The notes beneath the pieces were generated by a model. That model was given only the letters and a program-made list of their open reading frames with translations, was not told where the DNA came from and made no database searches. A stretch of DNA of 64,000 bases, taken from contig NZ_CVJQ01000001.1 in NCBI RefSeq assembly GCF_001375595.1, positions 930,001 through 994,000 on the forward strand, written 5' to 3'. The translations under genes and the position numbers were made by a program. Positions 49,286 through 53,566 of this stretch are shown here, one piece after another. Source of the stretch: Phenylobacterium immobile (ATCC 35973) (GTDB taxonomy: Bacteria > Pseudomonadota > Alphaproteobacteria > Caulobacterales > Caulobacteraceae). The first letter of the stretch is position 1; each line of letters opens with the position of its first letter.

Positions 49286-50125
49286 ATGGCTTTGACCGCC
49301 GAGCATACCAGCCGCTTCGTGCGGGCTGGCGATGTGAAGGTTCACTACCACGAGGCGGGCTCCGGCCCGGCGTTGGTGTGCATCCACGGCGGCGCGCCTG
49401 GCGCCTTCGGCTGGGGCAATTTTGGGCGCAACATGGACGCCCTGTCGGCGCATTTCCGGACAATTATTGTCGACCTGCCCGGCTACGGGAAATCCGACAA
49501 GCCGCCGATCGAGGGCGGCCAGTACGGATTCTACGCGAAGATCTTTATCGACATGTTGGACGCGCTCGGCATCGACAGGGCGCACATCATGGGCATGGCC
49601 ACGGGCGGTGGCGCGGCGATCAAGATGGCGATCGACTACGCTGATCGGGTCGACAAGTTGGTCTTGGTGAGCTCCGTCGGCGGGGTGATGCAGTTCGCCC
49701 CACAGCCGACTGAGGGCATGAAGACCATCCGCGGCTACTACGGCGGAGATGGTCCATCACCGACCAAGATGCGCCGCTATCTCGAGACGATCATGTACGA
49801 CGCCAGCCTCATCACAGAAGACCTGGTGATGGAACGCTACGCGGCCAGCATCGACCCGGCGTTCATGAGCCAGGCGCCTGAGGGCCGGCCGGGCAGCGTC
49901 GCGGCGCAGGAACCCGTTTGGAAGGACCTCGATCGGATCAAGGCGCCGACCTATGTCCTCTGGGGCCGCGACAATCGCGTCCAGACTTACGAAAACGCAC
50001 TGTTCATGTTGAGCCGCATCCCCGATGTTCAACTGCACATCTACGGTCAGACCGGCCTATGGGTGCCCTTTGAGCGCGCCGCCGCGTTCAATCGCCAGGT
50101 GATCGACTTTCTGACAGAGGACTGA
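49286..50125 (+). CDS. Alpha/beta-hydrolase-fold protein with all three catalytic residues replaced
   Basis: A 279-residue protein of the meta-cleavage-product (MhpC/BphD) hydrolase type: VCIHGGAPGAFGWGNFGRNMD and VDLPGYGKSDKP are normal. The nucleophile elbow reads GMATGG where the family has GNSMGG, so Ser is Ala105 (GCC at 49598-49600). The acid position reads GRDN rather than GRND, placing Asn230 in the Asp column, with Asp229 one residue earlier. The catalytic His position is Leu258 (CTA at 50057-50059) in GLWVPFE versus GHWAQWE. It is otherwise full length with an intact frame and a GAGGAGG ribosome site, so it is a maintained pseudoenzyme or has a different chemistry. Confidence 0.85.
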   Translation: MALTAEHTSRFVRAGDVKVHYHEAGSGPALVCIHGGAPGAFGWGNFGRNMDALSAHFRTIIVDLPGYGKSDKPPIEGGQYGFYAKIFIDMLDALGIDRAHIMGMATGGGAAIKMAIDYADRVDKLVLVSSVGGVMQFAPQPTEGMKTIRGYYGGDGPSPTKMRRYLETIMYDASLITEDLVMERYAASIDPAFMSQAPEGRPGSVAAQEPVWKDLDRIKAPTYVLWGRDNRVQTYENALFMLSRIPDVQLHIYGQTGLWVPFERAAAFNRQVIDFLTED

Positions 50126-50198: not shown

Positions 50199-50552
50199 TC
50201 ACACCGGATCCAGTGCGGCGCATTGGCTGCGCAACACCATTTCGGCTAGCGACCCACAGATTTCCGGAGCCCCCCCGCAGCAATCCTGCATGAGGTATCC
50301 AAGAAGATCTGTCATCTTGTCGAACCGCGCAGAGTAGATGATGGACCGGCCATTGCGCCTGCTCTCGACCAGTCCCGCATTGGCGAGAATGGAAAGCGAG
50401 GCGGAGAGCGTATTGGCCGGTACGTCCAGTCGCCGAGCCAACGCGCCGGCGGGAAGGCCGTCTTCCCCGGCCTGGATCAATAGGCGAAAAGCTGACAGCC
50501 GGCCCTGGTGAGCTAAGGCGGACAGAGCGGTCACCGCGTCTTTCATTTCCAT
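50199..50552 (-). CDS. arsR: ArsR-family arsenic-type repressor
   Basis: A 117-residue winged-helix regulator: ALAHQGRLSAFRLLIQAG, then LARRLDVPANTLSASLSILANAGLVESRRNGRSIIYSA. C-terminal cysteines (DCCGG near residue 91 and QCAA near 111) are candidate As(III) ligands, unlike the classical ELCVCDL position. Its place beside arsH and arsC supports an arsenic role. ATG at 50550-50552, with GGAGGAA upstream, lies in the loop of an inverted repeat described separately. Confidence 0.85.
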   Translation of the reverse strand: MEMKDAVTALSALAHQGRLSAFRLLIQAGEDGLPAGALARRLDVPANTLSASLSILANAGLVESRRNGRSIIYSARFDKMTDLLGYLMQDCCGGAPEICGSLAEMVLRSQCAALDPV

Positions 50553-50575
50553 AGTTCCTCCATATCGGAAATGAA
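50542..50575 (-). promoter_or_regulatory. Inverted repeat over the arsR ribosome binding site and start codon
   Basis: TTCATTTCC (minus strand) and GGAAATGAA form perfect 9-bp arms 16 bases apart. The second arm is inside the arsR codons for Met-Glu-Met-Lys, and the loop holds GGAGGAAC. It could be an ArsR operator (it contains TTCCGATAT, like the arsH site) or an RNA hairpin that presents the ribosome binding site. Confidence 0.5.
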
Positions 50576-50608
50576 CGAACCAGCAATGCCCCGCCCCGTG
50601 AAGTTGGC

Positions 50609-50968
50609 CTACCGTCCTTTGGAGATGGGAACTTTGAATGTCCCTCTCGCGCCCGGTGCGGCTACCAGGCTGCAGGCCGCCCCGTCCGGGACAATGGGAA
50701 ACGGGCAGCTTTCCGCGCCTGAGACGGCGATCGTAAGCGCGGTCTTGGCGTTCACCTTGTAGTCACAGCTCGCGCGCCGGAGTTTTGGATCGTTGTAGGT
50801 GGGGATAGCCCGATCCAGCAGGACCATCTTCACCCCTCCGTCGTTGAGCACCTCACATTTCATCGCCCAACGCCCTTCGCCGACGCCTGAGATAACGACT
50901 GCTGGCTTGTCTGCCCCAAACGCCGGCGCGGCCAGCAGCGCCACCATTCCCACCCAATGAGCCTTCAC
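50609..50968 (-). CDS. Small exported protein of unknown function
   Basis: A 119-residue protein with a Sec signal (MKAHWVGMVALLAAPAFG, cleavage after AFG) and a mature domain of about 100 residues. It has three or four Cys (KCEV, ASCDY, ESCPF, AACSL) that could form two disulfides. The start is GTG 50966-50968 with GAGG 8 bases upstream. It lies between arsH and arsR on the same strand, 57 bp before arsR, with its own inverted-repeat-bearing leader. No family recognised; a link to arsenic is only by position. Confidence 0.65.
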   Translation of the reverse strand: MKAHWVGMVALLAAPAFGADKPAVVISGVGEGRWAMKCEVLNDGGVKMVLLDRAIPTYNDPKLRRASCDYKVNAKTALTIAVSGAESCPFPIVPDGAACSLVAAPGARGTFKVPISKGR

Positions 50969-50985
50969 GTCGCTTGCCTCTTAAA

Positions 50986-51021
50986 GTTTCATTATTTCGT
51001 GAATACAAGAAATAATGAAAC
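50986..51021. repeat. Perfect 13-bp inverted repeat upstream of the exported-protein gene
   Basis: GTTTCATTATTTC (50986-50998), ten-base spacer, GAAATAATGAAAC (51009-51021), no mismatch. It begins 18 bp upstream of the GTG start of the small exported protein and 45 bp after the arsH stop. It is very AT-rich against a GC-rich background. It may be an operator overlapping a promoter, or a weak terminator for arsH, although no T-run follows on either strand. Confidence 0.85.
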
Positions 51022-51065
51022 GAAGAAAGGGAATTTCGACTCAAGGCTCAGGTCTTGGCGTGGCT

Positions 51066-51794
51066 TCAGGTCTGCTCGTGGCTCATGGCTACGGCGGCTA
51101 AGGCCGCTGGCTCATTGACCTTGCCCACGGCCTTGCGCTCGCTGTAGCGGTCGACGAGGTAGTCGGCCCGGTCCCGAGTGAGCAGGGTGAATTTCACAAG
51201 CTCCTCCATCACATCGACCACGCGGTCATAGTAGCTGGACGGCTTCATGCGACCGTCAGGGTCAAACTCCTGATATGCCCGGGCGACCGAAGACTGATTG
51301 GGGATGGTGATCATCCGCATCCAACGTCCTAACAGTCGCAGGGTATTGACGGCGTTGAAGGATTGCGAGCCGCCACTCACCTGCATGACGGCAAGGGTTC
51401 GTCCCTGCGTGGGCCGCACGCTGCCCACTTCAAGAGGAATCCAATCGATCTGAGCCTTCATGACGCCTGAGATCGCGCCATGGCGCTCCGGACTGCACCA
51501 CACCTGACCTTCAGACCAGGCAGAGAGTTCGCGCAGCTCTTGGACTTTTGGATGATCCGGGGGCGTCGCGTCGGGGAGCGGCAGGTCCCGGGGATCAAAA
51601 ATCCGAACTTCGCAGCCAAGTCTCACGAGAATCCTCGCCGCCTCTTCAGTCAAGAGCCGGCTGTACGACCGCTCTCGCAGCGAGCCGTAGAGCAGCAGGA
51701 TGCGGGGCGGGTGCAGGGCGCGGCCTTTCGGCTCAAGTGCGGAAGGGTCTGGGGCTTCGAGGAACTCGGATTCAAGCGCGGGGAAATCGACCAT
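51066..51794 (-). CDS. arsH: ArsH, NADPH-dependent FMN reductase / organoarsenical oxidase
   Basis: A 242-residue flavodoxin-like reductase that oxidises trivalent methyl- and aryl-arsenicals. The FMN-binding motif is [15 protein letters not shown]. It is followed by [29 protein letters not shown] (GxxxxxxKxxxDW) and [26 protein letters not shown], all typical of ArsH. ATG 51792-51794 ([11 protein letters not shown]) is preferred to longer in-frame starts because the operator palindrome lies at 51831-51854. No good ribosome binding site precedes it. Confidence 0.92.
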
Positions 51795-51830
51795 GGAGGT
51801 GGGAGCTTCACTAAAGGTTTTCACATTGCA

Positions 51831-51854
51831 TCTATTCCAGAAATATCGAATAGA
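51831..51854. promoter_or_regulatory. ArsR-type operator between divergent arsH and arsC
   Basis: TCTATTC (51831-51837), ten-base spacer, GAATAGA (51848-51854). The minus strand reads TATTCGATATTTCTGGAATA. The palindrome is in the 145-bp divergent region, where it can control both arsH (minus) and the arsC-aqpS-arsC2 operon (plus). The motif TTC-GATAT recurs in the arsR leader, supporting one ArsR acting at both. Confidence 0.65.
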
Positions 51855-51939
51855 CGTGTTTGTCGTCAACCTTCGCCGCCTGACCCGTGTTGGTCGAGTG
51901 GCTTAGTCGCCAACAATTCTGACCGCCCCTGAGAGTCGC

Positions 51940-52452
51940 ATGAGCACCAGACTGGCCGCCATTCTCATCCTCTGCACAGGCAACTCCGCGCGTTCCATCC
52001 TTGCGGAAGCGATACTCAACAAGAAGGGCGCAGGTCGCTTAGTCGCCTACTCCGCGGGCTCATTTCCGAAGGGTCAGGTTCATCCGCAGGCGTTGGCGCT
52101 ACTTGCCCGCCTCGGATATTCCACAGAGGGCTTGCGTTCAAAGTCGTGGGATGAGTTCGCAGGCTCGACCGCGCCCAGCCTCGATTACATCATCACGGTT
52201 TGTGACAACGCGGCGGGCGAAGTCTGCCCGATATGGCCAGGCGCCCCGATCACGGCCCATTGGGGCGTGCCTGATCCTGCTGGGGCGACAGGCTCTGACA
52301 CAGAGGTCGCCGCAGCTTTTGCCGAAACCTACAAGCGGCTTGAACGACGCATCGACGCCTTCTTAGCTGCTCCCTTCGAGGGGTCGGATCGTGCGGCGCT
52401 AAAGTCGAAACTCGATGAGATTGGCGAGATCGAAGACGGCGATGGCCAATGA
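51940..52452 (+). CDS. arsC: Arsenate reductase, low-molecular-weight phosphatase type
   Basis: A 170-residue enzyme reducing arsenate to arsenite. The P-loop C-T-G-N-S-A-R-S (ILILCTGNSARSILAE) gives the catalytic Cys and Arg, and the late DYIITVCDNAAGEVCPIWPG carries the resolving Cys pair. PDPAGATGSD is the general-acid loop. It is thioredoxin-coupled by family. It is the first gene of the plus-strand ars operon, with a 4-bp overlap with the channel gene. Confidence 0.92.
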   Translation: MSTRLAAILILCTGNSARSILAEAILNKKGAGRLVAYSAGSFPKGQVHPQALALLARLGYSTEGLRSKSWDEFAGSTAPSLDYIITVCDNAAGEVCPIWPGAPITAHWGVPDPAGATGSDTEVAAAFAETYKRLERRIDAFLAAPFEGSDRAALKSKLDEIGEIEDGDGQ

Positions 52453-53153
52453 CGGCTGATCCTGCTGAAGCACCGCCTTGGAGAGAAAGTGGCCTTGCAA
52501 GAAAGCTGGTGGCCGAAGGCGTTGGTTCCGCCATGCTCCTCGCCGTCGTTGTTGGGTCTGGCATCATGGGCGAGCGGCTGTCGGGCGGGAACGCAGCCAT
52601 CGCCCTTCTTGGCAACACAGTTGCGACGGGGGCCGGGCTTGTTGTGCTGATCAGCATCTTCGGCCCCATCTCCGGCGCACACTTCAACCCCATCGTCACC
52701 GCCATGTTCGTGGCGAGACGAGGGACGCCATGGGTCGTGGGCCTAGGCTACGCCCTGGTCCAGTTTGTCGGCGCTGTCTTAGGCGTCTTCACCGCCCACG
52801 TCATGTTTGCAATGCCGACGGTTCAGGTGTCCGAGAAGGTCCGCGAAGGCCCGCATCAAGCATTCGCAGAGGCTGTCGCGACCTTCGGTCTGATCGCCGT
52901 CATCTTGGGCGCTCTGCGGTTTCGGCCCCAGGCCGCGCCGATGTTGATCGGCCTCTACATCACCGCGGCGTACTGGTTCACAGCCTCGACCTCCTTCGCG
53001 AACCCTGCTGTCGCGGTCGCCAGAAGCTTCACCAACACTTTCACCGGCATCGCGCCGACATCCGTCCCTGGGTTTATCCTTGGAGAATGCCTCGGGGGCG
53101 TCCTTGCCGTGGCGACGTTTGGTTGGCTGTTCGCGCAGGAGCACAAGCCATGA
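52449..53153 (+). CDS. aqpS: AqpS-like aquaglyceroporin (MIP family)
   Basis: A 234-residue six-helix channel. The two pore motifs are HFNPIVT (NPI in place of NPA) and FANPAVAVARS (NPA). Sinorhizobium AqpS sits in an ars operon and lets arsenite leave the cell down its gradient after ArsC makes it. Here the gene lies between two arsenate reductase genes, overlapping both by 4 bp, so the same role is likely. No ArsB or Acr3 pump is encoded nearby. Confidence 0.88.
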   Translation: MTADPAEAPPWRESGLARKLVAEGVGSAMLLAVVVGSGIMGERLSGGNAAIALLGNTVATGAGLVVLISIFGPISGAHFNPIVTAMFVARRGTPWVVGLGYALVQFVGAVLGVFTAHVMFAMPTVQVSEKVREGPHQAFAEAVATFGLIAVILGALRFRPQAAPMLIGLYITAAYWFTASTSFANPAVAVARSFTNTFTGIAPTSVPGFILGECLGGVLAVATFGWLFAQEHKP

Positions 53154-53566
53154 GCGACCCAGAATTTCCCATCGTGATTTTTCACAACCCCGACTGCGGA
53201 ACCTCCCGCAATGTCCTCGAGATGATCCTGAGCGTCGGCTATGCGCCGGATGTCGTCGAGTACCTCAAGGCTGGATGGACGGAAGATCAGATTATCGACC
53301 TCGCCGCCCGAGCTGGCTTGTCTCTGCGCGAGCTGTTGCGCGAGAAGGGAACGCCAGCGGCCGATTTGGGCCTGCTCGATGATGCGGTGGACGACAGGCG
53401 GCTGATCGAGGCCATGCTCGCCCATCCGATCCTGGTCAATCGCCCCATCGTCGTTACGCCGAGGGGCGTCGGGCTTTGCCGGCCCTCTGAGACAGTATTC
53501 GATCTCCTCGACCGCAAGCCAGCAACCTTCACGAAGGAAGATGGAGCGGTCGTGAGGCTTGAGTAG
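53150..53566 (+). CDS. Arsenate reductase, glutaredoxin-coupled (ArsC/Spx fold) type
   Basis: A 138-residue thioredoxin-fold reductase: IVIFHNPDCGTSRNVLEMI carries the catalytic Cys (NPDCGTSRN). The arginine positions that bind arsenate are in later segments such as HPILVNRPIVVTPRGVGLCRPSE. It belongs to the E. coli R773-type ArsC family, unrelated to the LMWP-type ArsC two genes upstream. The ATG overlaps the aqpS stop. The cluster therefore has two independent arsenate reductases. Confidence 0.92.
   Translation: MSDPEFPIVIFHNPDCGTSRNVLEMILSVGYAPDVVEYLKAGWTEDQIIDLAARAGLSLRELLREKGTPAADLGLLDDAVDDRRLIEAMLAHPILVNRPIVVTPRGVGLCRPSETVFDLLDRKPATFTKEDGAVVRLE

Follow-up and report, generated by a model that had tools for sequence, protein, structure and literature searches.

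Within the window, i.e. the whole 64-kb (64,000-nucleotide) stretch of Phenylobacterium immobile DNA analysed here, lies an intact gene for a homologue of the meta-cleavage-product (MCP) hydrolases in which all three residues of the catalytic triad have been replaced, and the same replacements are fixed in orthologues from a second phylum. The best explanation of the data is a clade of MCP-hydrolase descendants that lost the triad once and is now present in both the Proteobacteria and the Actinomycetota. The triad-less protein probably has a different job in aromatic-breakdown pathways; at a rough probability of 0.4, it is a non-hydrolytic protein that acts on or holds a ring-cleavage product, probably in an isomerase- or tautomerase-like step.

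The open reading frame runs unbroken from its ATG to its stop with no internal stop codons, and it is preceded by the Shine-Dalgarno-like sequence GAGGAGGAA (Table 1), so the coordinates, frame and ribosome site given in an earlier note on this DNA are upheld. Pfam assigns the protein a single alpha/beta-hydrolase domain (PF00561, E 1.8e-21) and the closest PDB sequences by phmmer are HsaD, BphD, CumD and MhpC. The nearest curated models are also those of HsaD and BphD, albeit with scores under the cut-off for each: 269.5 bits against 400 for the HsaD equivalog NF045632 and 193.8 bits against 462 for BphD TIGR03343.

Loss of the triad in the window ORF is confirmed. In the phmmer alignment with HsaD from the PDB, M-A-T stands opposite N-S-L (N-A-L in the S114A entry), D-N opposite E-D and G-L-W opposite G-H-W. 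The multiple alignment, which included the annotated references BphD (P. putida KF715), HsaD (Tsukamurella) and MhpC (E. coli K-12), places A105, N230 and L258 at S112, D237 and H265 in BphD numbering. The three substitutions that the earlier note had read by eye, Ser to Ala105, Asp to Asn230 and His to Leu258, occupy the same columns by both methods, and neither pairwise HMMER nor MAFFT yielded an alternative alignment with a Ser or His at the catalytic sites. The alpha/beta-hydrolase fold also allows an acidic residue where strand 6 ends (PMC7034887); such a compensating acid was rejected here, as window residues 127-130 are Leu-Val-Ser-Ser, with no Asp or Glu.

The further statement that everything else is well kept was too strong. 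In the triad-less clade Asn111, immediately before the nucleophile, has become Met or Leu. Thr replaces the Met or Leu that follows the nucleophile (113), Ala replaces Gly43, and Pro replaces a Gln lying two or three positions beyond the His (Gln268 of KF715); each of these last three changes is invariant in all 14 triad-less proteins. Kept in the same 14 are the equivalents of Arg190, Asn51 and Trp266, which in BphD and HsaD we take to be contacts of the dienoate end of the substrate, Asn111 presumably being the fourth such contact. The distal positions Ile153, Leu156, Phe175 and Leu213 of BphD, presumably the lining of the far end of the pocket, are poorly conserved in the clade, so different members may have different ligands. 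Invariant residues were only marginally enriched at 17 presumed pocket positions, the three triad positions among them (9 of 17, compared with 89 of 286 in the whole alignment; p 0.045), and no weight is placed on this. Glu199 is a candidate new functional residue: each of the 14 triad-less rows has Glu there, and not one of the 20 triad-bearing rows does.

Table 1. Window coordinates of the triad-less gene, its putative ribosome-binding signal and the residues discussed.
Feature	Position in window	Strand	Basis or remark
Triad-less MCP-hydrolase homologue, 279 aa	49286..50125	+	Intact ORF; ATG at 49286, stop ends at 50125
Shine-Dalgarno-like GAGGAGGAA	49273..49281	+	4 nt between its end and the ATG; read from the sequence
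Asn45 (BphD Asn51)	49418..49420	+	Kept in 14/14
Ala105, codon GCC, nucleophile position (BphD Ser112)	49598..49600	+	Alignments
Arg184 (BphD Arg190)	49835..49837	+	Kept in 14/14
Glu199, lid loop Ala-Pro-Glu-Gly, candidate new functional residue	49880..49882	+	Alignment
Asn230, codon AAT, catalytic acid position (BphD Asp237)	49973..49975	+	Alignments
Leu258, codon CTA, catalytic base position (BphD His265)	50057..50059	+	Alignments
Trp259 (BphD Trp266)	50060..50062	+	Kept in 14/14

The predicted structure retains the fold of the MCP C-C hydrolases; Ser, Asp and His are absent in 14 of 14 members, and the three residues with a presumed dienoate role are present in 14 of 14. AlphaFold2, run with 29 aligned sequences, gave a model with pLDDT 93.8 and pTM 0.93, with lower confidence around the Glu199 lid loop (block means 77 and 68). 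Its best PDB match is BphD 2og1 (Z 40.9, rmsd 1.6 over 275 residues, 38% identity), and the other top matches are MhpC and HsaD, including Ser to Ala mutants. Two of these mutant entries are titled with a ligand, i.e. 2puh (BphD S112A) with its substrate and 2wue (HsaD S114A) with HOPODA, and the natural Ala105 occupies the place of the engineered Ala in both.

Residual hydrolysis, in which another residue or directly activated water stands in for the triad, is improbable, even though Glu199 offers a clade-wide candidate. Mutation of the MhpC serine lowers but does not abolish activity in PMC3097144, where a general-base mechanism is assigned, so MhpC without its serine is still partly active and loss of Ser alone would be insufficient to end hydrolysis. 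Here, however, the acid and the would-be base are also gone. Among conserved histidines, His22 alone is enriched in the clade (14 of 14, against 3 of 20 relatives), and it is distant from the triad positions in sequence. No general acid or base of known role takes the place of the lost His, and Glu199 itself lies in the loop predicted with lower confidence.

The replacements are not peculiar to the window. Ala, Asn and Leu are found in all 14 full-length orthologues, the window's included, and Ser, Asp and His in all 20 relatives compared, a hand-assembled set that left out the own-genome paralogue L003 (triad kept) and the near-duplicate L013. The full-length members are the window protein, its orthologue in a second Phenylobacterium genome (G074), 11 contig loci and a Caballeronia plasmid (L043), and they are 56-76% identical to the window protein. 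Within the genus, the G074 orthologue is 75% identical over 277 residues, and a fifteenth member (G073), present as two contig pieces of 73 and 80% identity, reads ATGG, GRDN and GLW where covered. Outside it, the 11 full-length loci (56-64%) come from Paraburkholderia/Burkholderia, Cupriavidus, Limnohabitans, Arthrobacter, Granulicoccus and two actinobacterial MAGs, and the Caballeronia plasmid copy (58.5%) is the twelfth non-Phenylobacterium member. In a maximum-likelihood tree of 38 proteins with the triad columns dropped, the 14 triad-less proteins group together as a single clade (support 100/100); how the triad-bearing groups branch more deeply, and where the long-branched L032 neighbour belongs, is unsure in this tree. 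The sharing of Ala, Asn and Leu is far beyond chance.

Nei-Gojobori dN/dS was 0.04-0.18 in nine full-length pairs, indicating purifying selection, although dS exceeded 1 (1.02-1.75) in four of the nine and makes the ratio rough. On a piece of 154 codons, two further comparisons came to 0.12 and 0.21; between the window and L025, dS was saturated. A decaying or mis-sequenced single copy, which the missing triad and the missed HsaD cut-off (269.5 against 400) might suggest, is therefore very improbable indeed: the residues are common to 14 of 14 orthologues, dN/dS is well below 1, the frame is intact and the fold is confidently predicted. As a single decaying copy the gene was rejected on the fixed orthologues and low dN/dS, and neither of the marks of a pseudogene, a broken frame or relaxed selection, was found. 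The earlier note had proposed fixation, dN/dS and structural modelling as checks; with fixation in 14 of 14, purifying selection and a confidently predicted intact fold, its reading of a pseudoenzyme or new activity rather than decay stands, joined by fixation across phyla and the 100/100 clade. It had also reasoned that homologues within the genus with Ser-Asp-His would point to a single decaying copy. Such homologues do exist, but they belong to other clades at 31-41% identity, and the close orthologues share the loss.

Matches at E 1e-60 occur in 7 of 101 genomes of the genus, namely the window's own, G074, G073 and four whose proteins, at 38-41% identity, keep the triad. Altogether nine loci of the genus or family, two of which are almost the same sequence, and five of five aligned own-genome paralogues keep the triad. 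At E 1e-3 the window genome gives 17 hits to the window protein, counting the gene itself. The five closest paralogues, at 32-41% identity, have Ser-Asp-His throughout; L007, L008 and nine weaker places lie outside the alignments.

The triad-less gene is rare. A scan with a two-sequence alignment of the genome contigs of 84,980 species gave 14 loci, of which L037 was dropped as a 33% partial match and L035 was left unaligned as a fragment of G073. With the window protein alone there was no relative among 17 pattern matches in genome contigs. A search of viral contigs gave none among 27 pattern matches. A family profile separates members (about 490-538 bits) from the best triad-bearing relatives (275-308 bits). 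Large sampled searches, in which six to seven first-look candidates per genome were scored so that counts are lower bounds, found members in at least six of 398 Burkholderiaceae genomes (L027, L028, L029, L033, L036 and L043), all already known. In the window's own class, the Alphaproteobacteria, at least five of 337 genomes pass E 1e-75, one with a member (the window's own) and four with Ser/Asp/His, and in the class of the Arthrobacter genome the count is at least one of 394, this being the source of the query. Among plasmids, 132 records match at E 1e-30, with Caballeronia at 58.5% and the others listed at 40% or less; of these 132, triads were read in Caballeronia, with the BphD and HsaD references. 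Such a scattered occurrence over the phyla suggests horizontal transfer. Searches of an open-licence literature library turned up no account of the clade.

Sixteen sequences, i.e. the window, three Phenylobacterium contigs and 12 other loci (10-25 kb), were searched with 13 query proteins, and outside Phenylobacterium the link with ring cleavage is strong. An HsaA-like flavin monooxygenase is present in 8 of the 12 non-Phenylobacterium loci, and an extradiol dioxygenase likewise in 8 (six BphC-type two-domain VOC, two LigB-type), while the other four have a small VOC protein, the L031 match being weak (27%, E 5e-7). A dioxygenase-like neighbour is thus found in 12 of 12, one by a weak match. 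Neighbour families were checked on representatives with NCBIfam and Pfam, the NCBIfam matches falling below the curated cut-offs. Small single-domain VOC proteins of about 178-198 aa lie near the triad-less gene in L028, L029, L030, L031, L036 and L043, and may represent the ring-cleavage dioxygenase in loci with no visible two-domain enzyme. On the annotated Caballeronia plasmid the route can be followed through an acyl-CoA dehydrogenase-type (HsaA-like) gene, flavin reductase, VOC, porin, MFS, the triad-less protein, a second hydrolase, hydratase, acetaldehyde dehydrogenase and aldolase. On the same plasmid (L043 5993-8644) the extradiol dioxygenase gene of the cluster, one of the six BphC-type, is interrupted by an annotated IS3 transposase gene. 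An mhp operon adjoins the cluster in L029 (by reading) and L043 (annotated). Immediately past mhpT there is one more homologue in the L029 genome (202 bits) and, on the L043 plasmid, a gene annotated as an alpha/beta fold hydrolase.

Ten of the 12 loci encode a second alpha/beta hydrolase near the triad-less gene. In eight of them the two genes are immediate neighbours that overlap or stand about 12 nt apart; in L025 the hydrolase is one gene away and in L030 two. L031 (Granulicoccus) has none within 8 kb, and none was seen beside the gene in L034, where the contig edge is about 1.4 kb off. Such tight coupling could mean that the triad-less protein is a non-catalytic partner, which joins the neighbouring enzyme in a mixed oligomer and stabilises, regulates or feeds it. 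The adjacency itself and the 4-nt overlap of the two genes in L026, L027, L029 and L033 would fit, as would the occurrence of the second hydrolase at E 1e-80 in at least six of 398 Burkholderiaceae genomes, which are also the six with the triad-less gene; these genomes have related clusters and represent linkage rather than six independent events. MCP hydrolases also assemble as dimers or larger, MhpC having a homotetramer entry (9ijk) and being described as a dimer in PMC3097144. A partner role is nevertheless unlikely, as the neighbouring hydrolases fall into three lineages (beta, Arthrobacter and L025) only 24-32% identical to each other, and no second hydrolase stands beside the gene in L031, L034 or the Phenylobacterium stretches. 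The three hydrolase lineages speak for a shared metabolite rather than for a complex that depends on one particular partner; that dioxygenase lineages vary too, while the triad-less protein is constant, likewise favours a metabolite function over a fixed subunit.

The neighbouring hydrolases from Arthrobacter and L025 have Ser, Asp and His. The beta second hydrolase keeps Ser and His and has Ala at the Asp column with an Asp one residue earlier, reading A-x-D-A-P-N in 8 of 8 (L026, L027, L028, L029, L030, L033, L036 and L043); an Arthrobacter homologue of it at 35% (L062) reads G-K-D-H there. Since Asp is missing at the usual column, the activity of the beta enzyme is itself not certain.

For the window copy the pathway link is one of homology only. 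Apart from a distant aldehyde-dehydrogenase match (33%), the 13 queries found no cluster genes in the 64-kb window, no ring-cleavage genes in the stretches read from three Phenylobacterium genomes and no second hydrolase in the Phenylobacterium stretches; the earlier note mentions neither a catabolic cluster nor a second hydrolase. The upstream neighbour in the window, 76 nt off on the same strand, is a zinc-type alcohol dehydrogenase/quinone-oxidoreductase-like gene with relatives of only 44-46% in two other Phenylobacterium genomes and its own, and none in G074 at E 1e-60. In two other Phenylobacterium genomes (MAGs), an aldo/keto reductase lies 2 nt upstream of the triad-less gene (L021 8779-9765). 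The window genome keeps a 76% orthologue of this reductase, but away from the triad-less gene (G000:C1:2812241) and with no pathway genes seen around it. As the Phenylobacterium gene stands outside such a cluster, its role in this genome is the weakest part of the reading. Downstream in the window, 50199-53566 holds an arsenic-type group comprising an ArsR-like HTH_20 gene, an ArsH-like FMN reductase, a LMW-phosphatase-type arsenate reductase, a major intrinsic protein channel and, by reading, a frame like glutaredoxin-type ArsC. The GC3 of this group is 0.66-0.72 against 0.83 in the triad-less gene, the arsenic roles being assigned by reading.

The retained substrate-end residues, the selection and the ring-cleavage linkage together point to a ring-cleavage product as the ligand. 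The data show loss of the triad and its fixation, selection, the predicted fold and genomic linkage; substrate binding, absence of hydrolysis and the identity of the step are what we infer for the clade. With the fold and Arg184, Asn45 and Trp259 kept, the protein most likely can still bind a ring-cleavage product or something close to it, and with the triad lost it would not hydrolyse it by the mechanism of the family. Both tautomerisation and C-C hydrolysis take place within one active site in MCP hydrolases, as described for BphD and MhpC. The nearby Ser/His-bearing hydrolase, in most clusters, could perform the C-C cleavage, and the triad-less protein would carry out tautomerisation or geometric isomerisation of the dienol/dienone on the same metabolite, in an active site made up of the kept pocket end and the clade-typical Thr106, Glu199 and Tyr185. 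Tentatively, this may amount to an undescribed non-hydrolytic step in meta-cleavage, in which the ring-cleavage product is isomerised, tautomerised or converted before or after a separate true hydrolase acts.

A kept pocket end without catalytic residues might instead belong to a protein devoid of catalysis that binds ring-cleavage products or aromatic acids as their sensor or carrier. The fold is used in this way by the plant receptors KAI2/D14 and GID1. Such a role is improbable for a protein to which Pfam gives hydrolase-domain models only, with no signalling domain, and several clusters carry regulator genes of their own (LysR by annotation; LysR, IclR and PucR-like frames by reading).

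The triad-less proteins resemble HsaD (NF045632, 4,5:9,10-diseco... hydrolase) and BphD (TIGR03343) in fold (Z 39-41, rmsd 1.6-1.7), in length and in the kept Arg, Asn and Trp, and elsewhere in the clade the genes are linked to those for an HsaA-like monooxygenase, flavin reductase and extradiol dioxygenase. Unlike HsaD and BphD, the clade has no Ser, Asp or His, and the Asn before and the Met/Leu after the nucleophile are altered. With MhpC, the E. coli 2-hydroxy-6-ketonona-2,4-dienedioate hydrolase, the window protein shares fold and meta-cleavage context, but identity in the structural alignment is 32% and the triad is lost. The laboratory mutants S112A and S112A-H265A of BphD and S114A of HsaD (2puh, 2pu7, 2wud and 2wue) likewise have Ala at the nucleophile and keep the fold, yet these were engineered, whereas here three residues were lost in nature and are fixed. 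In plants, GID1 and the catharanthine and tabersonine synthases have also lost hydrolytic residues and kept the alpha/beta-hydrolase fold, but those are carboxylesterase-like and not bacterial ring-cleavage proteins.

The label 'alpha/beta hydrolase', as on the Caballeronia record, conceals a clade that is unable to use the mechanism of its family. A natural, fixed, triad-free relative beside a separate hydrolase lets the splitting of tautomerisation and hydrolysis between two proteins be tested; alternatively, the triad-free clade would show whether the fold has found another chemistry.
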